Of a stretch of DNA of 50,594 nt, positions 2-17,532 are shown in pieces (position 1 is the first letter of the stretch; each line of letters opens with the position of its first letter). Both the position numbers and the translations under genes were made by a program. The DNA is from a virus, in IMG/VR virus record IMGVR_UViG_3300044984_002789, positions 1 through 50,594 of that record; one strand, written 5' to 3'. The notes under the pieces were generated by a model. The model saw only the letters and a program-made list of their open reading frames with translations. It made no database searches and was not told where the DNA came from.

Positions 2-2884
2 TATCAGGAAGATTACGCTGCATTACTAAGTAGTCTTGGACCGTACGGTGGACAGTTTCAAGATGAATTACAGGAATTAACTAAAACTTTAGATGGTGCT
101 AAACTAGAGCAAGCTAAAACAGCATTTTTAACTAAGCTACAATCTACCAGTGGCATAATAGATAAGCAAGATGCTAGTGGTAGAAACACCGATATATTTA
201 AAGCACTTACTGAGTTATTGAGAGTTGGTAGAAATGCTGATGGTACCGCAAAGGTACAGGGTAAGTGGTTTGAAGAGTTAGTAAAAGTTAATAATCAGTT
301 AACTAATGGAATGACTGGGGTTAGTAGCGTTAATGTTTACGATAGTGTAACGGAAGATGCTGTAAAAAATCTACTAGCAGCACAAGTTGGGTTTGTAACT
401 GATATTAAAAATAGTTTTTCACAAGTTCACGCTGATATATTAAATGAGGCGGTAGCCGCCACTGCATCACAGCTTGGAAGAGATCATGTTAGTGTATTAA
501 CTGCAGTTGAAAACTATGCGGCGCAATCTATTAGTGCATTTGAAGCTAATGGTGCAAGAGTACTATCAGAGGCTGCTAAAACTTTTGCTGATGGGTCAGA
601 AGTAGAGTTACAAAACACTGTTGTTGCATTAGTGCGTGAAGCGCTAGTTGGCTCTAATAATCAAGCAGATGAGCTAAAGTCGTATGAGCAATTAAAATAT
701 ATTGGTGATTATAATCAGTATATGGCTCAATTAACTGAAAAGTTGTTAAGCACTAATCAAATATTAGGCAAAGAAGACACCAAGCTATTACAAAATCTAA
801 TCAAAAGTGGAAAAGATTCAGGCATTACTGATTCCGCAATGCTTGACGCTTTGGCAGATATTCAAGCTAAAGTAGCCACCGGTATTGATGTTAAAGTTGC
901 TGATTCTGTAACGAATAAGTTAACAGAATCACAAGCGCAGCTATCGGATGCATTTTCCCGAACTGCGGTAGATTTAGAGGGCTACAACAAAGGTCAAGGT
1001 AAAGCACTAGCAACCCTGCGTAGTAGTAATACAGCTACTGGTAAAATGCTTGCCGAGCTAGCTGCTATTAAACGCAACAATGGATCAATATCAGGTGGGG
1101 ATGTTCGTGGTGCGGTAGAAACAGCAGGTGGTGGCGACGCTATTGCAAAAGAAGTGCTTGGTGCTGTTGGTACTATGGTAAAAGCGGTATACGTTTTTGC
1201 AAAAGATGTTAGTAAGTTTACATCTACAGAATACGATGCGTTTGTAAGCAACAACATACAGCTAGATCGTACCGCTACCGGATCAACTAACGCAACTAAA
1301 CTAGACCTCGGTGAAGCTGATTTCATGAAGGTGTTTAGCGATTATAAAACCGCGTGGGTGAATGAAGGTGTTGGAGCTATAACGCAACAAATGCAAGCAA
1401 CTCATGATCAATATGAGCGCGTGTACGGTACCGATCCACAGGTTATAGCAAAAAATCAGTTAGCATTTAAGCAATTATCACAAATAACTGGATTAACTAC
1501 TGATCAGATTGCTGATATGCAACATAGCATGAAGCAAATGTCAACGGTTGTTGGATTAAGTACTCAAGAAATGACAGATATGACTATGAACATATCTAAA
1601 GATGCAGCATTTAGAAGCACATTACAAAAAATGAATTCTGCAGATCGTGCCGCAAGAGTAATGCAAATTCAAAAACAAGTAGAGTTTGCAGCTGCATTAG
1701 GTATGTCAAAAGAAGCTACTGAAGAGTTTGCTAAAGCGGTGCTTACAGTTGGTGAAGGGCTTTCACCAGAGGAGATTTTAGGTGATGTTGGCGGTATAAC
1801 TAATTTTGTGGCTACACTAACCCAAGCTGGTCAGCAAGTAGGTGTATCAGCAATTGACTACGGGTTGTCTGCTGACAAAATGAATGCATACAACGATGCA
1901 TTAATGATTAATGCTAGTGCACGTACCGAAGAGCAAAATAAATTAGTAGCTGAAACTGGAACACAAATTGCAAAGTTTAAGAATGATATTGAACAAGCGC
2001 AAAATGAACAAATTAAGGGCCTAGCTACACCTGAAGAGAAAAAAACCGCATCTCAGCAATTTGCAGGTATTAATACTGTTGCAAAGATGAGTGAAGCAAA
2101 ACTATCAGATGCACTAAAAAAGACAATTGAAGTTCCAGCAAGTCAACAATTAGAACAAGAATCTGCACTTAATCGTATGAAAAATGGTGCAAGTATAGAA
2201 GAGGTCAAAGCACAGGGTGAAGCGCTACAAAAAGCACAAGAGCCTGCATATCTTGAAGCTGAAAAAACTCTAGCTGATACGTTAAATCACATTTCAGCGC
2301 TATTTGATGGGTTAGCTGGCGCTGTTGCAACCGCAGTAGCGGCATTAGTGTTAGGTGGTGGTGCGTTACAAAAAGGTGTTGGGTTAGCTAGAGCAGCCGG
2401 AACTGCAGCAACTGCGATAGAAGGTGCGGGTATGTTAACTATGGCGGGTGAAGCTATTGCCGGTATAGGTACTATGGTTGCTGGAGCAGTGTCATCACCG
2501 GTAGTGCTTGGTGCACTTGGAGCTGCAGCGGTAGGTTATGCTGGATACGAGGCTTATAAGTACTTTTCAGATGATGATAAATCTGAAGGTACTGCAAAAC
2601 CAGCTGCTGATGCTAATAAACAAACTGCGGTTCAAATTACACCTGAAGAACCTAAAAAACTACCATCGACTCAAATTACAGAATCATTAAGTAATGAAAT
2701 ATCAGCTACAATTGCTGATGTTGGTAAACAATTACTAACATTCCTTGGTAGCGTTCCAGGTGATGTTACAAATACAGCTGCTTCAAATGCAGCGTTACTA
2801 GAGGTGATGAGCAACTGGGTTAAATCACAATCTAACCTAACTCCAGTGCCCGTTATAACACCGCAACCAAACGTTACACGGTAG
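2..2884 (+). CDS. Tail tape-measure-like protein, 5' partial
   Basis: The frame is open from base 2 with no credible start inside the window, so the gene enters from the left; about 960 residues are visible. The protein is alanine-rich and largely helical, with long stretches lacking Pro and Gly. A strongly hydrophobic Ala/Gly-rich block is encoded at about 2290-2560, followed by a charged linker (DDDKSEG) and a short C-terminal domain. Long helical proteins with a hydrophobic segment near the C-terminus, next to baseplate genes, are typical of tape-measure proteins, which set tail length and are ejected during DNA entry. It converges with the next gene and overlaps it by 11 bases. It could instead be another large virion protein, since no family motif is decisive. 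Confidence 0.5.
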   Translation, partial: YQEDYAALLSSLGPYGGQFQDELQELTKTLDGAKLEQAKTAFLTKLQSTSGIIDKQDASGRNTDIFKALTELLRVGRNADGTAKVQGKWFEELVKVNNQLTNGMTGVSSVNVYDSVTEDAVKNLLAAQVGFVTDIKNSFSQVHADILNEAVAATASQLGRDHVSVLTAVENYAAQSISAFEANGARVLSEAAKTFADGSEVELQNTVVALVREALVGSNNQADELKSYEQLKYIGDYNQYMAQLTEKLLSTNQILGKEDTKLLQNLIKSGKDSGITDSAMLDALADIQAKVATGIDVKVADSVTNKLTESQAQLSDAFSRTAVDLEGYNKGQGKALATLRSSNTATGKMLAELAAIKRNNGSISGGDVRGAVETAGGGDAIAKEVLGAVGTMVKAVYVFAKDVSKFTSTEYDAFVSNNIQLDRTATGSTNATKLDLGEADFMKVFSDYKTAWVNEGVGAITQQMQATHDQYERVYGTDPQVIAKNQLAFKQLSQITGLTTDQIADMQHSMKQMSTVVGLSTQEMTDMTMNISKDAAFRSTLQKMNSADRAARVMQIQKQVEFAAALGMSKEATEEFAKAVLTVGEGLSPEEILGDVGGITNFVATLTQAGQQVGVSAIDYGLSADKMNAYNDALMINASARTEEQNKLVAETGTQIAKFKNDIEQAQNEQIKGLATPEEKKTASQQFAGINTVAKMSEAKLSDALKKTIEVPASQQLEQESALNRMKNGASIEEVKAQGEALQKAQEPAYLEAEKTLADTLNHISALFDGLAGAVATAVAALVLGGGALQKGVGLARAAGTAATAIEGAGMLTMAGEAIAGIGTMVAGAVSSPVVLGALGAAAVGYAGYEAYKYFSDDDKSEGTAKPAADANKQTAVQITPEEPKKLPSTQITESLSNEISATIADVGKQLLTFLGSVPGDVTNTAASNAALLEVMSNWVKSQSNLTPVPVITPQPNVTR

Positions 2885-3929
2885 GTTGTTGACCTTGTTG
2901 TGCAGGTTGTTGTTCTGGTTGTGTTTGCTGTGCAGGTTGAGCAGCTCCACGAGCAGTTGCTTGCTTATTAATCATAGCTAATTGCTGCTGTAATCTACGA
3001 ATCTGATCATCATATAATTTACTTGCACGAGCTTTTTGTACAGATATTGCAGCAATTTTGGTTTGAATTGCATTTACATTAGCTGTAATATCTTCATTCA
3101 TAACATCGTTAAAATCCATAACACCTTCATATGTTGGAGTATTAGTTACTTCATTACGGTATTTCGCTAATTTAGCCAATCTATCCGCTTCTTTCTTTTC
3201 TTCAGCTTGCTTCTTAAAGTGCTCTTCAGCACGAAGCATATCTTCTTCATTTTTAACTTTAGTGTTAGTTAATTGAATAGTTAACTTTGCTTGCTCAGCT
3301 TCAGCTTGAGCTGTCTTTGCTTTTGCTTCAGCCGTTTTTGAATCAGCATCCGCTTTTAACATATCAATAACTTTAAGTAGTATGCTTGAATCATCTACAG
3401 CAGGTGCCGCTGGTGGTAGCTCAGCAGGTAGTTCACCCTCTGCTCCCTCTGGTGGAACATCACCCTCAGGTTTATCACCATCTTTTTTGGTATCAAGCAC
3501 ATTATCAACTTCTTCATCTTCTGGTAGCTTTGGCCACTCAACATATAAGATATCAAAAGAGTTTCTTAAGTTAAATAAAATTTCGTTAACATCAACGTGA
3601 TCTTCATCTTGTAATATCTTACTTAACGCCTGTTTAAACTCACCATCTTGCTCTTTGCTAACATATACTTTTGTAATATTACCATCAGCATCTTCTATAC
3701 CATACGCTACAGAATCTTGTTTAAGCTCATTTGCTTTTTCTGCACCTTGTAATTTTGACACTACATCAACACTACTAAAATCATTAACTTTTTTATCTTC
3801 TGTCAACTTGTACTTTTTCTTACGCTTACGTGTTATTGGTTTTGAAAACATTGGCGCACGAAATCCAGCGATATCTCCACCAGAGATCGCAGCGTCACCG
3901 CTTTCATTTAAATAATCTGTCAGTCTCAT
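2874..3929 (-). CDS. Putative virion protein with capsid-targeting-like N-terminus and coiled coil
   Basis: A GTG at 3941 is in frame, but the Shine-Dalgarno GGAG abuts it; the same GGAG lies 11 bases before the ATG at 3929, so the protein most likely starts MRLTDYLNESG (351 aa). This N-terminus matches those of five other proteins in the window and has L-N-E at residues 7-9, like a T4 prohead-protease site. A basic patch (RKRKKK) follows near residue 35. The middle is acidic and Pro-rich, then comes a long Ala/Lys/Glu coiled coil, and the C-terminus is Gln/Pro-rich (repeated QQ, QPAQQ). A late-type TATAAATA box lies upstream. I know similar unannotated proteins in T4-like phages but cannot name a function. 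A virion component is the best inference. Confidence 0.6.
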   Translation of the reverse strand: MRLTDYLNESGDAAISGGDIAGFRAPMFSKPITRKRKKKYKLTEDKKVNDFSSVDVVSKLQGAEKANELKQDSVAYGIEDADGNITKVYVSKEQDGEFKQALSKILQDEDHVDVNEILFNLRNSFDILYVEWPKLPEDEEVDNVLDTKKDGDKPEGDVPPEGAEGELPAELPPAAPAVDDSSILLKVIDMLKADADSKTAEAKAKTAQAEAEQAKLTIQLTNTKVKNEEDMLRAEEHFKKQAEEKKEADRLAKLAKYRNEVTNTPTYEGVMDFNDVMNEDITANVNAIQTKIAAISVQKARASKLYDDQIRRLQQQLAMINKQATARGAAQPAQQTQPEQQPAQQGQQPTV

Positions 3930-3956
3930 TATGCTATACACTCCGGAGATACAACT

Positions 3957-3978
3957 AATAAATATGATTATATTTATA
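3957..3978. promoter_or_regulatory. Divergent late-type promoter boxes forming an inverted repeat
   Basis: ATAAATAT (3958-3965), GATT, ATATTTAT (3970-3977) form a perfect inverted repeat. Read leftward it contains TATAAATA (3971-3978), identical to the T4 late promoter consensus, 41 bases before the ATG at 3929. Read rightward it contains AATAAATA (3957-3964), one mismatch, 30 bases before the ATG at 3995. It is placed to drive both divergent genes. Confidence 0.5.
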
Positions 3979-3994
3979 AAACTAAGAGATAGCT

Positions 3995-5180: not shown

Positions 5181-8100
5181 ATGTACGGTCCAAATCAAAA
5201 CGTAAATCCATATACAGTGGTATCTACTGGGTTAATAGTAGATACTAACGACCCGCAAGGTCGAGGTAGAATAAAAGTATATTGTCAAGCATACGGAGAC
5301 TTACCAGGTACGCCATACGAAAACTTACCGTGGTGCAACTATATTACTCCATTTGGTGGAATGATATCTACAAATATTAATAGAGGTCCAGATGATTCTG
5401 TAACGGAAGGATCTACATCGTATGGCATGTGGGCACTACCAAAAGTCGGTTCTGAAGCTGTTATTATGTGCTTAAATGGTGATCCAACTAGCAGAGTCTT
5501 CTTTGGATGTATGCCTCCTAGATTCATGGAACATACTATGCCTCATGGTAGACATATTAAAGATAAAGATGGTAAATATTCTGGCCCACTATCATCTACC
5601 GAAAAACCTATTCAACCATTATCAACTAACATAACAAAAGCGTTTGGCACAGATACTAAACGTCCTGAATACGTATCCCGTGTTACAGATCCAGGGGTAA
5701 CTGGATTAAGTGATCAATATATAAAAAACAAGTATACAGAATCACAAGTTGCTGATACCACGTCTGGATATAAACGATCTAGAATTAATCCAGATCGTAA
5801 ATTTACTGCCAATGGTGACAACTACGATAGTCAGATATATTCAATGACTACACCAGGATTTCACTCATGGTCAATGGATGATAGCGCTGATAATTGTAGA
5901 ATACGTATTAGATCTTCTTGTGGACATAATATTATAATTGATGATACTAATGAAAGAATATACATTAACACAGCTGAAGGTAATAACTGGATTGAACTTG
6001 ATCAAGATGGATCTATTGATATCTACGCTAGTCAATCAATATCTATTAATTCTGATGCAGATATTAATTTAAATGCAAAGCAGTCTATCAGAATGCACGC
6101 AGAAGATATACACATGAATGCTAATCATGATATCGTACTATCATCTAATCATGTCATCAGTAACAGTAGCGACGTTATAACCTCTACTGCAAAAACAAAT
6201 TATTATGTACGTTCACAAAAAACTAACTTACGTAGCACTAAAGAAATTAACACTACTAGCGATAAGATAACTACTATTGCAAAATCAAACTGCTACATTC
6301 AAGGTAAGGTGCTTAACCTTAAAGGTACTACAGCGTTAAAAGCTGAAGGTAAACGTACAACAGTTACCGGTACAAATAATCTAGTATTAAGTGGCAATAC
6401 ACTTGATGCGGTTACAACTAAATTTAACATTACTAATAAATCATCACTAACTATTAGAAGTGGTTCAATAATACTAGGTAGTGCCGCTATTAGTGCAACC
6501 AGTGGTATAGTAGCACCACAAGCTGTAGCAAGTAAGACTAAAGCAGCTCTAGGTGTTGCAGGCTCAGTTGGTTCAACTGGTGCAGACGTTACACCGGTAT
6601 TAGTCGATGGAGTTTTAGTTGATCCAACTGTAACACCAGTTTCAAGTGATACGTCAGGTGATAGTGCTGCTTCTAACCTAACATCTGCACAACTAGCTCA
6701 GGTATTGGGATCTATTTCAAGTGATAGTATTAGCGACACTATGGCAAATATGCCTAGTGAAGATCTTGGTCGTGCGTTATCAGAAATGTCAGATGAGGTT
6801 GTTAGTAATCTGCTTAGTAGTGTTGGTGCAGATATGTTTGGGCAAGTATCATCAAATATACCAGCTGATATGCTACCTGGTATTCTAGATAAGATTAGTG
6901 GAGCTGCAGCTGGCGGTATAATGCAATCATTACCACCAGAAGACTTAGATGGTATTTTATCTCAATTACCGTCACCTCAATTAGGTAATATATTATCAAA
7001 AATTCCATCGGATCAAATTAACGATGTGGTAGATAATATACCAGATACTAACATATTAAACGATATGCAAAGTGCTAAATTAGGTGACATGTTATCAAAT
7101 ATGCAGTCAGATAAATTAGCAGCATTATTAGAAAAAATAGATCCTAATACGGTATGTAATTTACATCCTGCGCTCGCAGGCGAGTTAATTGCACGTGCAA
7201 ATACAGAAAAATCTACTGTAGATGCAAACGGGGTTGCAGTAGATCAAAACACTGTTACTCCTGATAACGCGCTTAAGTATCCTAATTTTGGTAGAATTTT
7301 AGCAACTAGATCACCAGACGAGATTAATAGTGTACTAGCTAATATGGAGCCATCTGCATTAGGCGAAGCAATGTCGTATATACCGACCGACAAATTAACC
7401 GTAGATAGCACCGGGGTTCAACGATTTGATACATCGAAAATTATTCCCGGTAATTTTCAAAGCACCTTTTCAAATAGCATGACTGGTGCAGATATTGGCG
7501 CAAAAATTGCTGATTTACCACCTGAAGATGTCAATAATCTTATGGAGCAAATGTCACCAGATCAACGCGGTCAACTGCTAACCATGGTGCCAGATACCGG
7601 TGTTGTACTACCACAAGTATCTAAATTTTTAACAAGTTTAAGTGACAAGGATAAAGTTGCAGTATTTACATCTGCTGCAAGTATGGATGCAACTGAAGCG
7701 CTAAATAGTATGACAAATGATGAAGTTACGCAAATGAGTGCGGTGCTTCCAACGTTAAGTGGTCCTGATGCAACTGGAGTATTATCCGACTTTAATGATA
7801 AAGACGTAACATCACTACTAAATGGTATGGAGCCAGATGATGTTGGTAGTATGTTAAAAGATATACCAATTAATGATTTTACTGATTTAATTAATCGTGC
7901 ACCACTTGCTGATTTAATTGATGTATTCTCAAATATGTCACCTGAATTATTGGGAGCTGATCTTGCACGTATCCCAGATGAGGAGCTTAATAACTTCTTA
8001 ATGAGCATGCCAAACGAAACAATGATGAGTTTGTTGGATAAAATACCTGATCAAGATAGGGCAGCGATATTAACAAAAATGAATGGACCTAGAGCTGCAT

Positions 8101-8267
8101 CATCATCAGCTGCATTAATAGCCGCATATCCATTGAGAATACCAAAACACGAACCATGGATTAGGTCAGATAATAAATCTAATACTGACATGACTCAGAA
8201 ATATACAAATAATGAGGCTGAAATTGGACGGACTCATAAAACTAGAAATAAGTATTGGAGTAGGTAA
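5181..8267 (+). CDS. gp5-like baseplate central spike protein with OB domain, beta-helix and C-terminal helical repeats
   Basis: Residues about 10-115 form a gp5-type OB-fold (Y-T-x-V...DPQGRGRIKVYC...PW...GSEAVIM), the platform of the tail needle. Residues about 233-440 are short Ile/Asn/Asp-rich repeats (for example SISINSDADINLNAKQSI), as in triple-stranded beta-helix spikes. No lysozyme domain lies between them, unlike T4 gp5. From about 500 to 970 the protein carries many short repeats of the pattern LPxEDLxxILxxLP, which resemble the MgtE N-terminal superhelical repeat and are unusual on a spike. The tail ends IPKHEPWIRSDN; a similar HEPW element occurs in other phage gp5 proteins. It should puncture the outer membrane. 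The next gene overlaps it by one base. Confidence 0.85.
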   Translation: MYGPNQNVNPYTVVSTGLIVDTNDPQGRGRIKVYCQAYGDLPGTPYENLPWCNYITPFGGMISTNINRGPDDSVTEGSTSYGMWALPKVGSEAVIMCLNGDPTSRVFFGCMPPRFMEHTMPHGRHIKDKDGKYSGPLSSTEKPIQPLSTNITKAFGTDTKRPEYVSRVTDPGVTGLSDQYIKNKYTESQVADTTSGYKRSRINPDRKFTANGDNYDSQIYSMTTPGFHSWSMDDSADNCRIRIRSSCGHNIIIDDTNERIYINTAEGNNWIELDQDGSIDIYASQSISINSDADINLNAKQSIRMHAEDIHMNANHDIVLSSNHVISNSSDVITSTAKTNYYVRSQKTNLRSTKEINTTSDKITTIAKSNCYIQGKVLNLKGTTALKAEGKRTTVTGTNNLVLSGNTLDAVTTKFNITNKSSLTIRSGSIILGSAAISATSGIVAPQAVASKTKAALGVAGSVGSTGADVTPVLVDGVLVDPTVTPVSSDTSGDSAASNLTSAQLAQVLGSISSDSISDTMANMPSEDLGRALSEMSDEVVSNLLSSVGADMFGQVSSNIPADMLPGILDKISGAAAGGIMQSLPPEDLDGILSQLPSPQLGNILSKIPSDQINDVVDNIPDTNILNDMQSAKLGDMLSNMQSDKLAALLEKIDPNTVCNLHPALAGELIARANTEKSTVDANGVAVDQNTVTPDNALKYPNFGRILATRSPDEINSVLANMEPSALGEAMSYIPTDKLTVDSTGVQRFDTSKIIPGNFQSTFSNSMTGADIGAKIADLPPEDVNNLMEQMSPDQRGQLLTMVPDTGVVLPQVSKFLTSLSDKDKVAVFTSAASMDATEALNSMTNDEVTQMSAVLPTLSGPDATGVLSDFNDKDVTSLLNGMEPDDVGSMLKDIPINDFTDLINRAPLADLIDVFSNMSPELLGADLARIPDEELNNFLMSMPNETMMSLLDKIPDQDRAAILTKMNGPRAASSSAALIAAYPLRIPKHEPWIRSDNKSNTDMTQKYTNNEAEIGRTHKTRNKYWSR

Positions 8268-8854
8268 TGGCACAACGGCAAACAGTTAACACTCTGGGTA
8301 TCGATCTTTCATCGCTTATAGCGACACCAACAGTAAAAGGTACTAATACCAAATCAACTAGTATATTGAATGGTACTAATAACCTTAACTATAACGGTAC
8401 ACTATATAGAGGCTTTTCTACTATCGATTTTAATTCAGGTACAATTAAAAAAGGTGTGTTTCCAGCTACTAATACGCAAGGACTAACATCGCCTATACCA
8501 GCAAATTATAATATTGAAAATCCCGGGAATAATACATTTACCCTTACTGATGTTAGTCTAGTTGAACGGAATATACTAAATCATATTAATACAATAAAAG
8601 GTAGTCGAGTAATGATGCCTGGATTTGGATCAATTATTCCTGAATTGTTATTTGAGCCGTTAGATGATGAAGTAGTGATTCAGGTTGAAGATGAACTTAA
8701 AACAATTATTGCGTATGATCCACGCGTTCAATTATTAAAAATTAAGTCAACTAAAATACCAAATACTAACACGTTAAATGTTGCAATGATGTTAATGTAC
8801 ATTGAATTAAATGTTACTAAAAATATGGACTTTAATTTAGAATTCAGTGCATAA
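8267..8854 (+). CDS. gp25-like baseplate wedge protein
   Basis: This 195-residue protein has a C-terminal GPW/gp25 domain: NHINTIKGSRVMMPGFGS, then LLFEPLDDE, then DPRVQLLKI. This is the family's characteristic order (a loop around PxFG, an acidic helix and the strand after DPR). T4 gp25 is about 132 residues; this one carries an N-terminal extension of about 80 residues (Asn/Thr-rich). gp25 is part of the inner baseplate ring next to gp6 and gp53 and starts sheath assembly. The ATG shares one base with the spike stop codon, so the two are probably translated together. Confidence 0.85.
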   Translation: MAQRQTVNTLGIDLSSLIATPTVKGTNTKSTSILNGTNNLNYNGTLYRGFSTIDFNSGTIKKGVFPATNTQGLTSPIPANYNIENPGNNTFTLTDVSLVERNILNHINTIKGSRVMMPGFGSIIPELLFEPLDDEVVIQVEDELKTIIAYDPRVQLLKIKSTKIPNTNTLNVAMMLMYIELNVTKNMDFNLEFSA

Positions 8855-8884: not shown

Positions 8885-9457
8885 ATGAAATTATACGAAA
8901 TCGCAGTTCCAGATGTAGATATTGCTAAATTAAAGCAGTTATGTGCTCCTTATATTGAAGTATTAAAGCATACTGACGGTGCTCCATTATTTCGTGGATA
9001 TAAAGGTAGTAGATTTACCAACGTTGAAGGTTTTAATGTAATAGAACCTAACTTAAATAGAGTTCCGGTTGATACCCCTCGAGTGCTACACGATGCACTA
9101 AATCAATCGTTTAAGCGTGCTTTTGGTTTTCCATATCGCAATGGAGTTTTTGCTTCTAGCAGTTATGATGATGCACGTTATTACGGGCCGGTTTATGCAG
9201 TGTTTCCAATTGGCGAATTGCACTATATTTGGAGCAAACAAATTAGTGATTTATATGTTCAATTGGATAAAACCTTTGACTTTGAGACACTTGAAAGCTC
9301 TAAACAATCATTAATAAATGCTGTTGCTAGCATAGCTGATGCGTATCAAAATAATGAATTGGATAAAGCTATACAAACAGGTCATGAAGTTATGCTTAAC
9401 AATAAGTGTATTATGATTCAAAATTATGGTATGATTAAAGATGCGGTGATGTCGTGA
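8885..9457 (+). CDS. Tagged ADP-ribosyltransferase-like protein, paralog 1
   Basis: First of three tandem paralogs (190 aa) that alternate conserved blocks: C-x-PYIEVLK, LFRG (R38), DTPRVLHD..N, FPYRNGVFASS (S91-S93), FPIGELHYIWS..ISDLY and GHEVM (E168) near the end. The order Arg, Ser-rich strand, Glu is that of R-S-E ADP-ribosyltransferases such as T4 Alt. The usual ExE is reduced to a single Glu here, so I treat this as inference. The N-terminus MKLYEIAVPD belongs to the capsid-targeting-like tag set. It overlaps the next gene by 4 bases (GTGA). The family is widespread and unannotated in T4-like phages as far as I recall. Confidence 0.45.
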   Translation: MKLYEIAVPDVDIAKLKQLCAPYIEVLKHTDGAPLFRGYKGSRFTNVEGFNVIEPNLNRVPVDTPRVLHDALNQSFKRAFGFPYRNGVFASSSYDDARYYGPVYAVFPIGELHYIWSKQISDLYVQLDKTFDFETLESSKQSLINAVASIADAYQNNELDKAIQTGHEVMLNNKCIMIQNYGMIKDAVMS

Positions 9458-10092
9458 GATTACATGAAGTTATAGATGCAACTGATTTATCACATATTGT
9501 TGAAACTATTAGACAGCATTGTGGACCGTATATTGAAATACTAAAGCAAAATAACGGTGATTGCTTGTTTAGAGGTAGTAATAGCGGTAAAGCCTATCCA
9601 GGTCATATTAACTTAATTAAACCTAGATTAGATAGAACTCCATTAGATACGCCTAGATTAATACATAAGTTTTTAAATCAAGAGTTTCAAACAAAATTTC
9701 ATTTTCCGTTCCGTAATGGAATATTTGCCACAGGTAATCAACCACGTGCAGCTGGATATGGTTCCGTCAGCGTAGTGTTTCCAGTAGGTGAATTAAATTT
9801 CATCTGGAGCCCTAAGATAGAAGATCTGTTTGCTGTTGTTGACACTACAATTGCTAACTTGGGAGATGGTACAGCGTTTGATTCAGATGAGGATCGTTTA
9901 GATAATACTTTACCTGTTAGTGACTACAACAATAAGCTGCTGCTTGATAAACTCAATCAATATATTAATACCTATACAAATAAAGATTTACTTGCAGCTA
10001 CTGCCAGTGATCACGAAATAATGTTTGCAAATGATTGCTATATGGTTAGTATCTATGATTATGGAAAAGTAGTTCAGGAGTTAACAAAATGA
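9454..10092 (+). CDS. Tagged ADP-ribosyltransferase-like protein, paralog 2
   Basis: It starts with GTG overlapping the previous stop as GTGA, giving MRLHEVIDATD (212 aa). Conserved blocks appear in the same order as in the first paralog: HCGPYIEILK, LFRGSN, RTPLDTPRLIHK, FPFRNGIFATG, FPVGELNFIWSP and, near the end, SDHEIMF. The Arg of LFRG, the FAT(S/G) strand and the Glu of HEIM are retained. It has about 20 extra residues between the IWSP block and the C-terminal Glu. It overlaps the next gene by 4 bases (ATGA). Function is inferred only from motif order and from comparison with T4 Alt. Confidence 0.45.
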   Translation: MRLHEVIDATDLSHIVETIRQHCGPYIEILKQNNGDCLFRGSNSGKAYPGHINLIKPRLDRTPLDTPRLIHKFLNQEFQTKFHFPFRNGIFATGNQPRAAGYGSVSVVFPVGELNFIWSPKIEDLFAVVDTTIANLGDGTAFDSDEDRLDNTLPVSDYNNKLLLDKLNQYINTYTNKDLLAATASDHEIMFANDCYMVSIYDYGKVVQELTK

Positions 10093-10682
10093 AACTAAAT
10101 GAAATTCTTAATAATGATAATCATAGCATCGATGAAATTGTAGCAATATTAAAACGTGATTGTGCTCCAATTATTGCGGAGTATAATAACGTTGGGGTGC
10201 CATTATCTCGAGGAATACAAGATAGCAATATACCACCAATGACCGTTATTCATCCATCACTAGATAGTAGAAGTCCTAAAGATACTAATATAACGGTTCA
10301 TAATTATATTAACAATTACTTTACTAAGCATGCTGGGTTACCATTCCGTAATGCGATCTTTGCAACCTCTGATTGGGAAGTTGCAGAAGTTTATGGTGAA
10401 GCATATGTGTTGTTTCCTATTGGACCATTAAAGTACTTGTGGAGCCCTCAAGTAGGTGATTTGTACGATACAGTGTCAAAGCTCGAATCTAGTAAAGATG
10501 CAGATCCAGCAAAAAAATATGATCAACAATTCTATCAAAAATTAGATCAATATCTTTCAACATATATATCTAAGAACCTCCACGCAGCATTAGAAGATGG
10601 TAGTGAAGTTATGATCGCTAATAACTGTTACGTGGTCACAATGGACTTATGGTTTGATCATTTAGAAGAGGCACTCTCATGA
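10089..10682 (+). CDS. Tagged ADP-ribosyltransferase-like protein, paralog 3
   Basis: Third paralog (197 aa), starting MKLNEILNNDN at an ATGA overlap. Blocks: RDCAPIIAEYN, LSRGIQ (the Phe of LFRG is replaced, Arg kept), SPKDTNITVHNYIN, LPFRNAIFATS, FPIGPLKYLWSP..GDLYD and GSEVMIANNCYVV. It is the most diverged of the three by eye. The candidate catalytic Arg, Ser/Thr and Glu are all present. The ATGA overlap with the kinase gene suggests the four proteins are made together in fixed proportion. Confidence 0.45.
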   Translation: MKLNEILNNDNHSIDEIVAILKRDCAPIIAEYNNVGVPLSRGIQDSNIPPMTVIHPSLDSRSPKDTNITVHNYINNYFTKHAGLPFRNAIFATSDWEVAEVYGEAYVLFPIGPLKYLWSPQVGDLYDTVSKLESSKDADPAKKYDQQFYQKLDQYLSTYISKNLHAALEDGSEVMIANNCYVVTMDLWFDHLEEALS

Positions 10683-11407
10683 AATTATATGACATATTAT
10701 CAGAAGGAATCTACGACAAAGGTATTTTTAAGTGCTTATTCCTAGGTGGTATTCCTGCTAGTGGAAAAAGCACAATCGTGAAAGATATTATTCAAGAACT
10801 AACTGTATCACATAGCATTAAACCACGTGTATTAGATTACGATAAATTTTATGAATACTTGAGCAAGAAGCATGATGTACCTATTAGTACAAGCGCTGAA
10901 GTTGAAGCTCCAGGAGCAGTATCAATTCAAAATAGAACTAAAGAGTTAATGTCATCACAACTTGAGTTATACCTAACCAGTATGCTACCAGTTATTATTG
11001 ACACTACTGCATCTAATGTTCATAGTACCATCGTACGTATGCGTAGACTACGCCAATACGGTTATGATGTAATGATGTTATATAAAGAATCTGAATTAGA
11101 GCGATCATTAACTCGGGCTGAATCACGTAGACGTTTTGTGCCACCAGAGTATATTAAAGATACGCACGAATCAAAACCTAGAACGATTGAAAAGATGCAA
11201 AAAGTGTTTAATAATGCACACTATCCGTTGCAAATACTAGGTGTAGATGAGGAGGTGGCGACTGTAATGCCTGCTATAGTACAATTCTTTACTAGTCCAA
11301 TACGTAATCCTATTGGCTTGCAGCAGGTTGATAGTCTAAAATCTGCAGAACGTAAATATATTATACGTGGGCAGACTCCTCCAGTTGATTGGTATGGAAA
11401 ATATTAA
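10679..11407 (+). CDS. Tagged P-loop kinase, zeta-toxin/AAA_33-like
   Basis: The 242-residue protein begins MKLYDILSEG, with L-S-E at residues 7-9, as in the tagged set. A Walker A motif GGIPASGKST lies near residues 23-32. It is followed by VLDYDKF (probable substrate Asp), VIIDTT (Walker B-like strand) and an Arg-rich lid (RAESRRRF). This is the layout of the small-molecule and RNA kinase family that includes zeta toxins and PNK-type kinases; the substrate cannot be told from sequence. It is the last gene of the four-gene coupled operon and converges on the next gene with a 4-base overlap. It could be an injected effector given its tag. Confidence 0.6.
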   Translation: MKLYDILSEGIYDKGIFKCLFLGGIPASGKSTIVKDIIQELTVSHSIKPRVLDYDKFYEYLSKKHDVPISTSAEVEAPGAVSIQNRTKELMSSQLELYLTSMLPVIIDTTASNVHSTIVRMRRLRQYGYDVMMLYKESELERSLTRAESRRRFVPPEYIKDTHESKPRTIEKMQKVFNNAHYPLQILGVDEEVATVMPAIVQFFTSPIRNPIGLQQVDSLKSAERKYIIRGQTPPVDWYGKY

Positions 11408-11658: not shown

Positions 11659-11691
11659 ACATAGCTCCATAAATCTAAAGTGTATATTATA

Positions 11692-11699
11692 TATTTATT
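11692..11699 (-). promoter_or_regulatory. Late-type promoter box (AATAAATA, minus strand)
   Basis: On the minus strand this reads AATAAATA, one mismatch to TATAAATA. It is 33 bases before the ATG of the small gene ending at 11658 and lies back to back with the host-type promoter for the RNA repair gene. Confidence 0.3.
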
Positions 11700-11721
11700 C
11701 CATATAACATGCACGTATAAC

Positions 11722-11750
11722 TTGATTTATAATTGCAGGTGTACTATAAT
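11722..11750 (+). promoter_or_regulatory. Sigma70-like promoter for the HD-Pnk gene
   Basis: TTGATT (11722-11727), a 17-base spacer and TATAAT (11745-11750), followed by ATATTATTTTTT. It lies 28 bases before the ATG at 11779. The same arrangement recurs before the RNA ligase at 13144. Confidence 0.75.
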
Positions 11751-11778
11751 ATTATTTTTTTTTATCGTGGTGATTATT

Positions 11779-12900
11779 ATGGACACAAATCAAAAAGTAG
11801 AGTGGTTGCAAATAGAATTCCCTAAGTTGTGGAGTGATATGGAGAACAGTAATCACCATTTTAATGCAACTACATTAAACCCATATCACCTAGAGGGTCG
11901 TGTGAGTACTCATACACTGATGGTGGCTAAAATAGCTGAATTATATAATGAAGATGATATTGTACAATGGGCTGCATTGCTACATGATATCGGCAAACCA
12001 TCAGCTCGTATCGAGATTCCAGAAAAAACACGTGCTAGATTTGTACAACATGAATCGATTAGCATGTTTTTAGCGATTGATATATTAAATAGAACAGATA
12101 TGTCAACAGAAGATAAAATAATGACTCTGCGTACTATAGCTGGTCACAGTTTACTATTTGATTTAGTATTAATTGAAGATAATGACCTCGTGCTAGATGA
12201 AAAAGCTCTTACTATCTTTGAAGGTGAACGTACGTTTTTATCGTATGTTAGTCGAATTACTCGATGCGACACACTCGGTAGATTTGCAAAAGGTGCTGAT
12301 GCTCGAACTAAATTAGGTGAATTAATAGTTAACCGCACACAAACAATTGTTGATCGGTTAGTTGATAAACCTGATATTAATATTACTAAAAATAGATTAA
12401 CTATACTATGTGGTCTACCTGGTAGCGGTAAATCTTCATACATTGAAACGTTACCTGCAGATACAATTGTTATCTCCAGAGATAACGTGCTTGAAGCTAT
12501 TGCAGCTCGTATGAACATTACATACAATGAAGCGTTTCACTTACAAGCTAATGATAAGCAAGTTAAAACCGCTATCGATGATGAAATTGCTAGAGTAGTT
12601 CAGTCCGCTAAATCAACTAATGCAAACGTGGTTGTCGATATGACTAATTTGAGCAAAAAATCAAGACGTCGTTGGATTGGTCAGTTTGGTAAACATTATA
12701 GAGTTGAGTGCATACTATTTTTAACTGGTATGTCAGAACTTGCACGGCGCAATGAAATTAGAAGTCAAGCTGGTAAATCTATAAGTGATGATGTATACTT
12801 ACATATGATGAAATCGTTTACACTACCTATGTATAATGAAGGAATATCTCGCATTGAATATAGGTTATTTGAAGGGAATACAAATGCAACAACACATTGA
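11779..12900 (+). CDS. HD-Pnk: HD-domain phosphoesterase fused to 5'-OH polynucleotide kinase
   Basis: The frame is open further upstream but that part overlaps the promoter; ATG 11779 with GGTGATT in front is the start (373 aa). Residues about 40-170 are an HD domain: H45, the HD pair at 69-70 (LLHDIGK), H91 and a later Asp in TRCD. Residues about 205-365 are a PNK-type kinase: Walker A GLPGSGKS (212-219), SRD (233-235), then VVVDMTN and an Arg-rich stretch. The same domain order occurs in the characterised bacterial HD-Pnk of Runella slithyformis, where HD removes 2',3'-cyclic or 3' phosphates and the kinase phosphorylates 5'-OH ends. It would prepare broken RNA for the ligase encoded 0.3 kb downstream, replacing the kinase-phosphatase PseT used by T4. 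Confidence 0.82.
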   Translation: MDTNQKVEWLQIEFPKLWSDMENSNHHFNATTLNPYHLEGRVSTHTLMVAKIAELYNEDDIVQWAALLHDIGKPSARIEIPEKTRARFVQHESISMFLAIDILNRTDMSTEDKIMTLRTIAGHSLLFDLVLIEDNDLVLDEKALTIFEGERTFLSYVSRITRCDTLGRFAKGADARTKLGELIVNRTQTIVDRLVDKPDINITKNRLTILCGLPGSGKSSYIETLPADTIVISRDNVLEAIAARMNITYNEAFHLQANDKQVKTAIDDEIARVVQSAKSTNANVVVDMTNLSKKSRRRWIGQFGKHYRVECILFLTGMSELARRNEIRSQAGKSISDDVYLHMMKSFTLPMYNEGISRIEYRLFEGNTNATTH

Positions 12901-13147: not shown

Positions 13148-13172
13148 CTTAACACTATAATTGTACTATAAT
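13144..13172 (+). promoter_or_regulatory. Sigma70-like promoter for the RNA ligase gene
   Basis: TTGACT (13144-13149), 17 bases, TATAAT (13167-13172). The -35 box overlaps the last codon and stop of the preceding gene. The stretch GTACTATAATATTATTTT is nearly the same as in the promoter at 11722. Confidence 0.78.
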
Positions 13173-13211
13173 ATTATTTTAAAGCAATCAATTAAATCAA
13201 AAGGTGCATAA

Positions 13212-14333
13212 ATGACTTTTCCAATTATTAATAATATCAACGACTTACTACCACATATCAGCGATAAGTCTGAAATTAACGTAGTTACACATGAAAATGG
13301 TTGTACAGTAATTAGCTATATGTTTCAAGATCGAGATACATTTGCCGGTGAAAACGCAGAGTGGGCTCGTGAATGTAGAGGTATCACATTTGACGCAGAA
13401 GGTAATGTTGCATCGAGAACATTTCATAAATTCTTTAATGTAAACGAGCGTCCTGAAACAAAAGAAGAAGTTATTGACTGGAATGATATTCAATCAACTT
13501 ATGATAAGCGTGATGGGTCAATGATTTCACCTGTACGCATTAATGATAAGATTGTTTTTAAAACTAAAAAGAGTTTTGATAATGAAATTAGTCAGAACGT
13601 AAACGCTATATTTAATGATGAGTCTCCTGAATATCGATTAAGTGAGTATCTATTAACTCAAGAAATTAAAGCTACTCCAATTTTTGAATATACCGCACCT
13701 AGTAATCGTATTGTATTAAAATACGATGAAGTAAAGCTAACATTATTAGCTGTACGTGAGAATATTACTGGTATGTATTGGACTTATAGTGAGCTTCTTG
13801 AGCTATGTAATAAATTATTTCGTACTATCAACCTAGTAGATAGATTTTCAGTTGATACTAATGATGTAAATTGGCTAGGAAAATTAAAAGATGTACTAGC
13901 CTCAGCTGAAAATTTTGAAGGCTATGTTTTTGAAACAAGTACAGGTGAGCGATATAAATGGAAATGTGCTTGGTACGACTTACTACATCATAACTGCACA
14001 TTTACAACTGAACGTAATATCGCGGAAATGGTTGCAGATGAAAAAGTAGACGATTTTAAAGCTTATTGTGTCAGCATTGGTGATACAGAACTGTTTAATA
14101 AAGTAGAAGCTATTGAAACCCGCGCGGTTAACTTATTACGAGATCTTACACTTGCAGTTGATGCTACAGTAGTAATTGATAGTGGGCTAGAAGTTAAAGA
14201 TTTTTGCTTAAAGCATAAAGATAATCCATTGTTTCATTTAATGATTGCTGCATTTAGGCATAAAGAAGTTAACTATATTGATTACTTTAAAAAGTACGTA
14301 CTAAATATTGAATTTAGTGCAGACACCATTTGA
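13212..14333 (+). CDS. RNA ligase, T4 Rnl1-like
   Basis: The 373-residue protein (T4 Rnl1 has 374) carries the nucleotidyltransferase motifs in order. These are the upstream ARECRG strand, motif I K-R-D-G-S with the adenylated lysine at residue 99 (the same number as T4 Rnl1 Lys99), motif IIIa/III near TPIFEYTAP, motif IV EGYVF and motif V YKWKCAWY. The start at 13212 has AAGGTG 6 bases upstream. Rnl1-type ligases seal 3'-OH/5'-phosphate RNA breaks, classically tRNA cut by host anticodon nucleases. Together with HD-Pnk this makes a complete heal-and-seal pair. The stop codon overlaps the -35 box of the next promoter. Confidence 0.88.
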   Translation: MTFPIINNINDLLPHISDKSEINVVTHENGCTVISYMFQDRDTFAGENAEWARECRGITFDAEGNVASRTFHKFFNVNERPETKEEVIDWNDIQSTYDKRDGSMISPVRINDKIVFKTKKSFDNEISQNVNAIFNDESPEYRLSEYLLTQEIKATPIFEYTAPSNRIVLKYDEVKLTLLAVRENITGMYWTYSELLELCNKLFRTINLVDRFSVDTNDVNWLGKLKDVLASAENFEGYVFETSTGERYKWKCAWYDLLHHNCTFTTERNIAEMVADEKVDDFKAYCVSIGDTELFNKVEAIETRAVNLLRDLTLAVDATVVIDSGLEVKDFCLKHKDNPLFHLMIAAFRHKEVNYIDYFKKYVLNIEFSADTI

Positions 14334-14358
14334 TTTTTATGTTAAAATATACTACAAT
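14330..14358 (+). promoter_or_regulatory. Sigma70-like promoter before the zinc-finger/nucleotidyltransferase genes
   Basis: TTGATT (14330-14335, overlapping the ligase stop), 17 bases, TACAAT (14353-14358). It lies 32 bases before ATG 14391. Confidence 0.65.
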
Positions 14359-14390
14359 AGTATTTTAAATCAATTATAAAGAGGTTTAGA

Positions 14391-14615
14391 ATGCTTTGTA
14401 GTATATGCGGAGATGATACCGCGGTATCGTTTGAAGATCTAGAGATTTTTGAACATAGAGGTGTAGTTAAAGAGCTACCGTCGTATTTTAGTGAGTGCGA
14501 TCAATGCGGTTTATTTGCTACACAGTTACAAATAAACAAAAATGCTGCAATTACTCGTAAGTTTCATGAAGATGTAAATAAAATGTTCTTACGTTATGCA
14601 AACGTTATTTTTTAA
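14391..14615 (+). CDS. YgiT/MqsA-type zinc-finger protein
   Basis: 74 residues with C-x-x-C at the N-terminus (CSICG) and C-x-x-C after the strand (SECDQCG). A central EHRG element separates them, as in the zinc-binding N-terminal domain of MqsA/YgiT-like antitoxins. No DNA-binding helix-turn-helix half is present, so it is the zinc domain alone plus a helical tail. GAGG lies 6 bases before the ATG. In bacteria such domains bind partner proteins; here the partner is unknown. Confidence 0.6.
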   Translation: MLCSICGDDTAVSFEDLEIFEHRGVVKELPSYFSECDQCGLFATQLQINKNAAITRKFHEDVNKMFLRYANVIF

Positions 14616-14627
14616 ATGGTGAATACT

Positions 14628-14828
14628 ATGGTAGTTAACGACCAAAACTTAAATAGTAAAATTAGTAGATCTGCTATGATATCAGAACTAGAACTTAAAC
14701 AAATTATGTCCGATCGCAGTATGTGTCACGCAGAAAGCGTTGCACGTGACACCCCATCTAAAAGTACTGCTCGTATGCAACAAGCGTTAGACTTTAAGTT
14801 TGATGAAATCTTTAGGAACAGTAAATGA
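14628..14828 (+). CDS. Small hypothetical helical protein
   Basis: An in-frame ATG at 14616 exists, but GGTGA ends 5 bases before the ATG at 14628, which I prefer (66 aa). The product is charged and helical with a Ser/Arg-rich middle. It overlaps the nucleotidyltransferase gene by 4 bases (ATGA), so it is probably translated with it. No family recognised. Confidence 0.5.
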   Translation: MVVNDQNLNSKISRSAMISELELKQIMSDRSMCHAESVARDTPSKSTARMQQALDFKFDEIFRNSK

Positions 14829-15757
14829 ATATTATAGTTGAAACATTGTTCGGTAGTCACTTGTACGATTTAGACACACCTAACTCCGATAAGGATTATA
14901 AGGGTGTAATTTTACCTACTGCTAGTGAAATTTTATTAGGTAAAGCAAGCTATCACGTCGACAAGAGCACCAGCAATCATTCTGGTAAAAATACTAAAGA
15001 TGATATTGATCGTACATTTTACTCATTAAGTTACTTTATTGATCTTGCGTGTAAAGGTGAAACGGTTGCACTTGATATGTTGCATGGTGGTGTAGATAAA
15101 CGTATTGTCACCAGTGATATCTGGGATTTTCTTGTGAGTAATCGCCATCGATTTTATACAAAATCAATGAAGTCATATATTGGATACGTACGTAAACAAG
15201 CAGCTAAATATGGCATTAAAGGCTCACGGATTGGTGAGTTAGAAAAACTCATTGACTACCTTAAAAACCACGACGCTAACTTAGTTGTTGAAGATATGTA
15301 CTTTCCAATAAATGACTTTGGAAAGTGGATCGACTACAAAGGTAACAGATACTATGAATTTGCTGGTAGTAAGTTTCAAGACAATCTAAAAATTAAGTAT
15401 ATGCTAGATACGCTTGAAAAAATTTATGCAAATTATGGAGAGCGTGCTAAATTAGCAAAAGAAAATCTTGGAGTTGATTGGAAAGCTGTGTCGCACTGCT
15501 TACGTGCCGGATATCAAGCTCGAGACATCTTTACTAAAGGTTACTTTGAATATCCACTAGATGAAACAGATTTTCTGATAAAGGTTAAAGCTGGTGAGCT
15601 AGATTTCTTGACGGAGGTCGAACCAGAAATTGAACGAATCACTAAAGAAACATTAGCGTTATCAGATGAATCTACGCTACCGCAAGACGTAGATCGCGAA
15701 TTTTGGAATACAGTTATTGAGACTATACATCTTGATATTGTAAAAAAGACATTGTAA
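14825..15757 (+). CDS. Predicted nucleotidyltransferase (COG3541/YcgL-like)
   Basis: The 310-residue protein opens with FGSHLYDLDTPNSDKDYKG. This is the GS(H)LY...SDxDYxG motif of COG3541 predicted nucleotidyltransferases, in which the Ser and the two Asp residues form the polymerase-beta-like active site. The middle contains a conserved helical region (YIGYVRKQAAKYG). Members occur in many T4-like phages, often near RNA ligases. The substrate is unknown, and tRNA or RNA ends are a reasonable guess here because of the neighbouring repair enzymes. It is coupled to the preceding small gene by ATGA. Confidence 0.75.
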   Translation: MNIIVETLFGSHLYDLDTPNSDKDYKGVILPTASEILLGKASYHVDKSTSNHSGKNTKDDIDRTFYSLSYFIDLACKGETVALDMLHGGVDKRIVTSDIWDFLVSNRHRFYTKSMKSYIGYVRKQAAKYGIKGSRIGELEKLIDYLKNHDANLVVEDMYFPINDFGKWIDYKGNRYYEFAGSKFQDNLKIKYMLDTLEKIYANYGERAKLAKENLGVDWKAVSHCLRAGYQARDIFTKGYFEYPLDETDFLIKVKAGELDFLTEVEPEIERITKETLALSDESTLPQDVDREFWNTVIETIHLDIVKKTL

Positions 15758-15777
15758 TGAATTGGAGACATTTTGAT

Positions 15778-16515
15778 ATGGGTATGTTTGACACTACAAC
15801 GCTGCACTGCCCTAAATGTGGTACAGGTAACCAGATACAATCTAAAGGTGGTGATTGCGTACTTGCTGAATACGAACGCTTTGAACAGACACCCATTGAT
15901 GTACTGGCTGGCCTATTAGAGGCTAATAAGGTAATTACATGTACACATTGTGATACACCTTACCGTGTAAAAGCTCAATTTAATGTTACAGCTACTAACA
16001 TTGTGTCTGAATTAATTACTTGGATAGAAGAAACAGATAGTAGATTAGCTAATAAGCTTGCACCTACAGTTATTGATGATGCATATACTTTTGTACAAAC
16101 ATACTCATTATTTTCAATACCGTTAATGGCATCTATTGATGGTAATATTACGCTTATATGGAAACTAGCAGATAGTGATAAATTATCTGTTACCTTTACT
16201 GGTAACCAGCAATACAATGTGCAGCTCGTTGTTAATAATGAGTTACTGGATGATACATTGAACATAGATCAAACATTGCCGTCTTATGTTATGATACAGC
16301 TACCATGGATTAATCATTTTTCAATTCGCGATAATGATGTAGTAAGCCATATAGGTACCGCGTTTGCCAATAATCGAATAGCATCAGTTAACTTTCATCA
16401 TACCCATGTAGTACTTAAAGATCTTGCTGATAAGCTAAGTGAAATTTATTCGGTATGGGATGAAAAATATATTTCATCCCATTTGTATTTTATTAACGCG
16501 GCTAGTATGGAATAA
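15778..16515 (+). CDS. Zinc-ribbon phage protein (MGMFDT family)
   Basis: The frame is open from the ATG at 15757, but GGAG at 15763-15766 fits ATG 15778, giving MGMFDTTTLHCPKCG, a start I know from related phage proteins (245 aa). CPKCG and CTHCD form a zinc ribbon within the first 65 residues. The rest is an acidic alpha/beta region with no known motif. An 11-bp perfect hairpin lies inside its last codons, and its stop codon abuts that of the convergent gene. Function unknown. Confidence 0.6.
   Translation: MGMFDTTTLHCPKCGTGNQIQSKGGDCVLAEYERFEQTPIDVLAGLLEANKVITCTHCDTPYRVKAQFNVTATNIVSELITWIEETDSRLANKLAPTVIDDAYTFVQTYSLFSIPLMASIDGNITLIWKLADSDKLSVTFTGNQQYNVQLVVNNELLDDTLNIDQTLPSYVMIQLPWINHFSIRDNDVVSHIGTAFANNRIASVNFHHTHVVLKDLADKLSEIYSVWDEKYISSHLYFINAASME
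16455..16482 (+). terminator. Hairpin with T-rich tail inside the 3' end of a gene
   Basis: ATGGGATGAAA (16455-16465), loop AATATA, TTTCATCCCAT (16472-16482), then TTGTATTTTATT. The 11-bp stem is perfect. It acts, if at all, as a terminator of + strand transcription even though it lies about 30 bases before the stop codon. Confidence 0.5.
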
Positions 16516-16521
16516 CTAGCC
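16500..16521. terminator. Hairpin spanning both stop codons of a convergent gene pair
   Basis: GGCTAGT (16500-16506), 8-base loop, ACTAGCC (16515-16521). The + strand TAA and the minus strand TAG stops are adjacent inside it with no spacer. The tail AGCTTTTG on the + strand is only weakly T-rich. Confidence 0.35.
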
Positions 16522-17532
16522 AGCTTTTGACTTGAATAATTCAAGATTGTGAATAAGCGTATCGTGAACCCATGGAAACTTAACGTTGCGCTTAGCATAA
16601 TCAAACAAGCTTACTGGGCTATCATTTAACGCAGATTGCTGATACGTGGCAAGATTTGTACGGACATTATTAAAATCTACTACACCGTTAAGCCATACTA
16701 ACAATAACAATTTAACATCTGTATCGCTACGACCGTGCAAGAATTCATACAATGAGCGATCTGCAGCTTTTGATTCTAACAACCGTTGAAGTTTCTGACA
16801 TAACTCACCAGATATTGATCTTAAAATAACACTCACTTTTTTAGTTTTATCATCTAATGCTTCTTCCAGAGCATCAATGTTGTAAATGCTCAGTAACTCT
16901 GATTTACGTTTCGTAAAATCATTATTGAAAATAGTATCTAGAACAACTAGTTTGTCTTTGTTTAGTAGCAGTACTTGTACTTGCTCACCATCGTGAATTA
17001 GTTCATTAGAGTCTGCAAACCCACTATAATTTAAAGCAAGTAGAATTTTAGCCCATTGTTGTTGATATCTTTCAGGACTTAACTCTTTAGCAATGTATTT
17101 TGTTAATTGCCAGAACGCTTCAAATGGTTGTTTGTATGCAATGCGCTCAAGTTCTTTATCTAGATTAACTAAATGTGAGTATCTATTTTTTAAAACATTA
17201 ATATCGTTTTCTAAGTTTCTATATCTATCAGTAGCTAAGATTTCGTGTGGAAATTTTATGATATGAATATATGGGTGGTTGTTTGCATACGGATAATTGT
17301 CAAAGTTTTGATTTTGCTCAACATTATACTTAGCCCAAGTTGACTTTAGCGGGTAAGCATATATTCCGGCTGGAGCGTCGGTTGACTTAGTGCTAATCGG
17401 TGGCTTACTGTTTTTTGACATACTAATATAAACGGCAGCATCATTCTTATACGGTAGCAACTGCTCATACGCTGATCGTTTTGTTTTAGGTGCTGAAGAT
17501 TCTTCAGCTTCAAATAATTCATATAATTTCAT
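16516..17532 (-). CDS. Tagged phage protein of unknown function (MKLYELFEAEES...)
   Basis: The 338-residue protein begins MKLYELFEAEES, with L-F-E at residues 6-8, the best match in the window to the T4 capsid-targeting peptide MKTYQEFIAEA. The body begins with an alpha/beta region containing VYISMSKN, AGIYAYPL and PYIHIIK. I recall these blocks from unannotated T4-like phage proteins. The remainder is helical. A perfect TATAAATA box lies 31 bases upstream, with no strong Shine-Dalgarno. A protein packaged in the head is the best inference. Confidence 0.6.
   Translation of the reverse strand: MKLYELFEAEESSAPKTKRSAYEQLLPYKNDAAVYISMSKNSKPPISTKSTDAPAGIYAYPLKSTWAKYNVEQNQNFDNYPYANNHPYIHIIKFPHEILATDRYRNLENDINVLKNRYSHLVNLDKELERIAYKQPFEAFWQLTKYIAKELSPERYQQQWAKILLALNYSGFADSNELIHDGEQVQVLLLNKDKLVVLDTIFNNDFTKRKSELLSIYNIDALEEALDDKTKKVSVILRSISGELCQKLQRLLESKAADRSLYEFLHGRSDTDVKLLLLVWLNGVVDFNNVRTNLATYQQSALNDSPVSLFDYAKRNVKFPWVHDTLIHNLELFKSKAG

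Follow-up and report, generated by a model that had tools for sequence, protein, structure and literature searches.

Unrelated proteins encoded by a viral DNA fragment of 50,594 bases (IMG/VR record IMGVR_UViG_3300044984_002789; hereafter the window), which is a piece of a T4-like jumbo myovirus, begin with a common short peptide, the tag, whose general form is M[KR]L-x-[DE]-x-[LIF] and which ends in some proteins in L-x-E. This shared N-terminus is almost certainly a real signal, and it probably loads proteins into the phage head as a T4-type capsid-targeting sequence made by the first 8–10 residues. Head targeting had been proposed earlier from the letters of the window. The proposal is now supported by the enrichment of the tag in related phages, its phage-specific dialects, the residue spacing of T4 internal proteins (IPs) and gp24, a gp21-type protease encoded nearby, an [LIM]-x-E site in the major capsid protein (MCP), late promoters, and a virion gene cluster in Agrobacterium phage Atu_ph07. 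Within open-licence papers, no account was found of such a tag shared among proteins of T4-like jumbo phages.

Six genes of the window carry the tag. An acidic coiled-coil protein of 351 residues (2874..3929, minus strand) starts with MRLTDYLNE|SG, where the bar denotes the potential cut; an alternative, longer reading from GTG at 3941 is unsupported. Four genes of the plus strand (8885-11407) form one operon, as the sequence-only reading had noticed, and are coupled through 4-base overlaps (GTGA/ATGA/ATGA). They encode three proteins resembling ADP-ribosyltransferases (ARTs), all without Glu at the cut position: paralog 1 (8885..9457, MKLYEIAVPD), paralog 2 (9454..10092, MRLHEVIDA, GTG start) and paralog 3 (10089..10682, MKLNEILNND), followed by a zeta-toxin/polynucleotide-kinase-like P-loop kinase (10679..11407, MKLYDILSE|G). 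The sixth is an orphan protein of 338 residues (16516..17532, minus strand, tag MKLYELFE|A), which begins MKLYELFEAEES at 17532 and features a variable linker, then a conserved domain from SAYEQ. All six N-termini lie where the sequence-only reading had placed them, but the proteins are not all unrelated, as it had held: the products of 8885, 9454 and 10089 are 34–37% identical to each other and are, on this similarity, paralogs, which leaves four unrelated families. The coiled-coil and 16516 proteins have no detectable sequence in common with the other tagged proteins. The general form of the tag fits five of the six, MKLYEIAVPD having A in position 7, and the sites L-N-E (7–9), L-S-E (7–9) and L-F-E (6–8) had been read correctly. 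A terminal [LI]-x-E is found in 3 of 6 window proteins, as in nearly all tagged members of Atu_ph07 and of Salicola phage SCTP-2; it is absent in the three ART-like proteins, both in the window and in the related contig G009.

When one paralog is kept, 3 of 63 window genes fit the general form versus 0.16 expected (reached in 1 of 5000 shuffles of N-terminal columns), and M[KR]L-x-[DE] is found in 4 versus 0.48 (2 of 5000 shuffles). Because the window pattern was picked after looking at the data, the decisive support comes from a held-out test in other phages, in which a motif derived from the N-termini of the ART-like family only was scored on all genes outside that family. Tagged genes number 7 in Atu_ph07 and 6 in SCTP-2, versus 0.04 expected in either (0 of 3000 shuffles each); XacN1 gives 0–1. 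Under a generic motif the count is 19 of 810 genes for Atu_ph07 and 20 of 526 genes for SCTP-2, where column shuffles give 0.8 and 0.6 (at most 4 and 5 among 2000); this motif never follows an internal Met (0 of 2320 and 0 of 2195, respectively). A second motif, defined beforehand solely from T4 data, shows enrichment in SCTP-2 (13 versus 3.2, 0 of 2000 shuffles) and in contig G003 (5 versus 0.8, 2 of 2000). These figures bear on the possibility that ART-like proteins and kinase share a single tagged ancestor and that the other matches are due to chance. Paralogs do account for three of the six window genes and for the majority of those tagged in Atu_ph07 and SCTP-2, but the 7 and 6 genes found outside the family show the tag on unrelated bodies, as do the coiled-coil and 16516 proteins; because of the held-out test this explanation is largely refuted, and is considered very unlikely.

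The tag varies among phages in a regular manner. In tblastn searches of annotated phages, the ART-like family was found only in Atu_ph07 (7 places) and SCTP-2 (6 places). Members begin, for example, MKWHQLTEDT, MRWDQLTEAN and MRWEQLTESL in the former, MKINDLLKEN, MKVNDILKED and MKINELLNES in the latter. Each phage features its own dialect, common to paralogs and unrelated proteins of the same genome: unrelated carriers in Atu_ph07 include MRLIDLLESS, MRLIDLLEDI, MRLIDLLEHT and MKWQDLSEGI, and in SCTP-2 the tag is carried, among others, by a nudix hydrolase (phrog_1185, 3e-36). The MKWQDLSEGI protein (Atu_ph07 290373-290885) weakly matches ART-PolyVal (PF18760, 3.8e-4), and may represent a different ART-like family bearing the same phage-specific tag. 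Tagged proteins similar to phrog_16075 were considered as hidden ART relatives and rejected, as no similarity was detected.

Orthologs of the window proteins retain the tag in modified form. Orthologs of the coiled-coil protein, 46–77% identical, begin MRLTDYLKEDG, MKFIDFLQEDG, MIFSEFLREDG, MRFTDFLQEEA and MNFSNFLKEEA; letters vary, chemistry and Glu are kept. Kinase orthologs start with MRLVELLNEG in G009, MKTFAELQEG in Methylophilales phage Melnitz, and MIPFILKEG in Pelagibacter phage HTVC008M, and in these as in the window the tag leads into G-[IVL]-[YN]-D, the conserved beginning of the kinase. ART-like orthologs in G009 begin MKLLEIVGPN (paralog 1), MRLYEILNSDD (paralog 2) and MRLVELLTDD (paralog 3). 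In the 16516 protein and its orthologs (G007, MKLVELFEARKNPELNLRLSAYEQ; G009, MRLQQLLDEVQNPELDQNASAYDQ) the tag (MKLYELFEA, MKLVELFEA, MRLQQLLDE) is kept, a poorly aligning linker follows, and conservation resumes at SAY[ED]Q. No ribosome-binding site was recognised at the 17532 start, but retention of the tag ahead of SAY[ED]Q in the orthologs supports it as the true one. The shared start might alternatively reflect translation initiation, codons favouring initiation being selected at the nucleotide level in the lack of any peptide signal. MK/MR-L starts with A-rich codons are frequent in AT-rich phages. However, the same peptide is written with different codons (TTA, CTA, CTG or CTT for Leu-3, GAA or GAC/GAT in position 5), the constraint extends to residue 9, and the hydrophobic spacing is fixed, which makes this origin highly improbable.

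The spacing of the tag is that of T4 peptides which are known to be cut. In the T4 record, two internal proteins begin MKTYQEFIAEA, gp24 begins MAKINELLRES, gp21 begins MNEPQLLIETW and so carries LLIET near its N-terminus, and gp23 includes FLTEAEIGG. The first 10 residues of IPIII are enough for loading; targeting depends on residues 4 and 7, cutting on residues 8 and 10, and Asp in position 10 blocks cutting, not targeting (PMC9026906). Alt is cut at ITE-6 and LTE-619 (PMC5694885). When sequences are aligned at the Glu, Y4-Q-E-F7-I8-A-E10 of T4 corresponds to L3-T-D-Y6-L7-N-E9 and L3-Y-D-I6-L7-S-E9 of the window: the phi-x-x-phi-phi-x-E spacing, phi being a hydrophobic residue, equals that of T4, one residue closer to the start. 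The coiled-coil protein, the kinase and their orthologs all feature hydrophobic residues at i and i+3 and a final hydrophobic-x-Glu; in the 16516 protein the tag is shorter by one residue (L-F-E).

A candidate cutting enzyme is encoded close to this region in near-identical contigs. Contigs G002 (36 kb) and G003 (65 kb), near identical to the window over the shared part (96–100% protein identity), run beyond the window start into head genes. Peptidase_S77 proteins, of the gp21 type, were identified in both (E about 1e-24), in the related contigs G007-G013, and in Atu_ph07, SCTP-2 and XacN1. No prohead protease was found inside the window, in a search whose control gave no signal; the gene is located upstream, in the near-identical contigs. 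In G003 it lies 4 kb past the coiled-coil gene, and is followed by scaffold and MCP genes (PF07068, 1.4e-101). The protease of these contigs has its own L-V-E/L-I-E near the N-terminus. MCPs of all six phages analysed feature [ILM]-x-E ahead of the conserved domain of the mature protein (IME|S, LTE|T, LSE|T, LAE|T, LKE|S, LME|N), a predicted cut site at the position of the T4 site. The sequence-only reading had advised a search of the rest of the genome for a gp21-type protease and more tagged genes, and the G003 head region holds both. Further head-block proteins start with MLLNEILKD, MLLSELLLE, MLLNEIATD, MNFTQFLIESE and MKFLRQLLKED; the last weakly matches methyltransferases (4e-5), and the MLLSELLLE protein and its tagged Atu_ph07 relative MRLIDLLEHT both match phrog_1349. 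The MLLNEIATD protein (G003 29723-31501; G009 40137-42002) weakly matches phosphoribosyltransferases (PRTase-CE/UPRTase, 9e-5), has a late promoter in front in G003, and is a candidate packaged effector. Adjacent to the protease are fast-diverging proteins (G003 22247-23422, G011 7305, G009 33875) which begin MELNRMLQLAGL-VSE and include an internal RWLQLAGLVSE repeat; they may belong to the prohead core and be cut at several positions.

The tag could address proteins elsewhere, either by docking them on tail or baseplate or by delivering them to the GroEL-gp31 chaperone. The ART-like operon does come after baseplate hub and gp25 genes, MCP N-termini (MSKLFES, MKELLEN) loosely resemble the tag, and one paper reports in its title that the N-terminus of a T4 head protein directs proteins to GroEL. 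Set against this, the L-x-E at the tag end is a head-protease motif, the nearest T4 peptides, those of IPs and gp24, are cut head propeptides, and G003 has a cluster of tagged genes in its head block. A destination other than the head is therefore rather unlikely, and head loading is retained.

Virion data are available for one relative. Mass spectrometry by Attai et al. identified 131 virion proteins of Atu_ph07, and the products of coding sequences 31–76 (46 products) include 29 virion proteins, only two of which had been predicted to be structural (PMC6102473). With the numbering set by record accessions (gp1 = AUZ94813, gp2 = ClpX, gp70 = helicase-primase), the ART-kinase array corresponds to gp53-gp63 and MRLIDLLESS to gp43, all within this cluster. 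If detection in the cluster were random, the probability that 0 of 12 such genes were detected would be 1.6e-7. The placement suggests that tagged Atu_ph07 proteins are in virions.

Tagged genes look late, because late elements precede the solitary ones and the operon directly follows the hub and gp25 genes. The T4-type late promoter element TATAAATA is found on the minus strand at 3971..3978, 41 nucleotides upstream of the tagged start 3929, and at 17563..17570, 30 nucleotides upstream of the tagged start 17532. The window includes 5 such elements, below the chance expectation of 14.3; others lie upstream of a lysozyme gene and 112 nucleotides upstream of an Rz-like lysis gene. Late-promoter sites in the window map at 3958-3978, 17563-17570, 19460-19467 and 39433-39440. 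In six contigs of the clade, 58% of TATAAATA and 66% of ATAAATAT sites are located 15–70 nucleotides upstream of a gene of the same strand, versus an average of 7% for 8-mers of the same composition, and the genes so marked include protease, scaffold, MCP, baseplate, fibre and tagged genes. The consensus (T/A)ATAAATAT (window, G003, G007, G009, G012) is depleted overall and concentrated 15–70 nucleotides upstream of late genes; elements are at times back-to-back, one overlapping element serving divergent genes (G007 10437-10450). The baseplate hub gene (tail-lysozyme-like, 5181-8267, plus strand), with relatives in XacN1, Atu_ph07 and SCTP-2, and gene 8267-8854 (plus strand), presumably gp25-like, are in line with the tagged operon, a 30-bp gap separating the two blocks. 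ATAAATAT occurs upstream of 3995, at the head of the gene run leading into hub and gp25. The ART-kinase operon has no exact late element, ATAAATAA being found 27 nucleotides upstream. The arrangement implies that the 5181-8854 genes and the tagged operon are co-expressed late.

Several observations weigh against head loading with proteolytic release. Glu is missing from the ART-like tags of the window (AVPD, IDA, NND) and G009 (VGPN, NSDD, TDD). The T4-derived motif is not enriched in Atu_ph07 (4 versus 5.4 expected), where the tag is one residue shorter, and part of the tagged genes fit only under a loosened motif. Late promoters are not significantly commoner before tagged than before other genes (Fisher p = 0.06), so their placement supports late timing only.

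Head loading might proceed as follows. Tagged proteins would be produced late in infection alongside head and baseplate proteins; the N-terminal peptide, phi-x-[DE]-phi-phi-x-E after M-K/R, would dock on the prohead core, and the shell would close round the docked proteins. The gp21-type protease would then cut after the Glu of L-x-E in kinase, coiled-coil and 16516 proteins, which would be freed inside the head. Cutting is plausible only for these three, because the ART-like proteins lack Glu at the cut position, and for the three it is judged reasonably likely. The ART-like proteins, having the targeting half of the tag, could be packaged and left uncut, a fate proposed tentatively, at slightly less than even chances. 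Upon infection the enzymes would accompany the DNA into the host and take effect there immediately; by analogy with T4 Alt and IPs, the ART-like proteins may be injected early effectors. The coiled-coil protein is a candidate prohead-core or internal protein.

Among the putative cargo, the kinase matches PF06414 (5.7e-9) and AAA_33 (2.7e-7) and contains the Walker A motif GGIPASGKST (GxxxxGK[ST]); profile match and motif bear out the P-loop kinase assignment of the sequence-only reading, and place the protein among zeta-toxin/polynucleotide-kinase-like enzymes. In a relative, Atu_ph07 gp53 (778 residues), the kinase spans residues 250-455. Phrog_12810 (788 residues) matches the kinase and, weakly in its N-terminal part, an ART-like protein; on these matches it joins, as a fusion, the two types of gene that are neighbours here. 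Conserved across the ART-like family are LxRG (Arg changed to His in some SCTP-2 members), R-N-[SGA]-x-F-x-T, A..YG, FPxG and E-[IV]-M, residues which fit an R-S-E ART, without being proof of one. The ADP-ribosyltransferase identity suggested earlier is based on this motif resemblance: no ART family was matched in Pfam by the window proteins, nor by 27 relatives, which matched nothing consistent; a profile of 13 ART-like proteins matched no PDB sequence; an AlphaFold model (4-sequence alignment, pLDDT 59, low confidence) had no Foldseek match in PDB. Phage ARTs are often head-packaged, according to a survey using fusions and gene context (PMC9503650). On balance, the window proteins are slightly favoured to be ADP-ribosyltransferases. 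The single-sequence fold of the 16516 protein is not usable (pLDDT 40).

Other features of the window were recorded. Adjoining the tagged operon on its downstream side is an untagged gene (11680-12900) encoding an HD phosphohydrolase domain fused to a P-loop polynucleotide-kinase-like domain (PF01966 + PF13671), possibly an RNA repair or nucleotide signalling enzyme. Gene 19575-22898 is taken to be a gp6-like baseplate wedge gene. A series of glycosyltransferase-like and sugar-epimerase-like genes, judged by eye, spans 44859-50502, and suggests that the phage glycosylates its surface or DNA. The window gave no match in Rfam.

In a broader formulation, for which the odds are a little better than even, T4-like jumbo phages would load dozens of enzymes by combining a phage-specific N-terminal address code with release by the prohead protease; a subset would have kept the address and lost the cut site, becoming permanently tagged, uncut cargo. 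The set includes ART-like expansions, zeta-like kinases and a nudix hydrolase, with weaker phosphoribosyltransferase- and methyltransferase-like matches. The heads of jumbo phages contain numerous proteins, and it usually takes proteomics to tell which of them are injected. If the formulation is correct, injected proteins could be listed from sequence alone, in uncultured phages as well, anonymous proteins such as the ART-like arrays, the zeta-like kinase and the phosphoribosyltransferase-like protein would be effectors of host takeover in the first minute, and loading tags would become available for delivering proteins with phages other than T4.

Signals which load ejected proteins into heads from the N-terminus are known in phage P1 (DarB) and as propeptides in SPN3US and phiKZ; Dar proteins, however, show no common tag, and SPN3US propeptides are mostly long and have an A-x-E site. 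T4 Alt, a packaged ADP-ribosyltransferase, provides a precedent, being an enzyme packaged in the head whose short propeptide at the N-terminus ends in [IL]-x-E, but the window proteins match no Pfam ART family. The gp24 propeptide (MAKINELLRE|S) is nearly identical to MKINELLNES of SCTP-2, although gp24 itself is a vertex protein of the shell rather than an injected enzyme. The capsid targeting sequence of T4 IPs (MKTYQEFIAE|A) resembles the tag in position, length, amphipathic spacing, an acidic residue ahead of the two hydrophobic ones, a Glu cut site where one is kept, association with a gp21-type protease, and presence on proteins of differing bodies. In contrast to it, the jumbo tag is one residue shorter, begins M-K/R-L/F/I/W, comes in phage-specific dialects, and marks up to ~20 proteins per genome, many of which are enzymes or enzyme-like.

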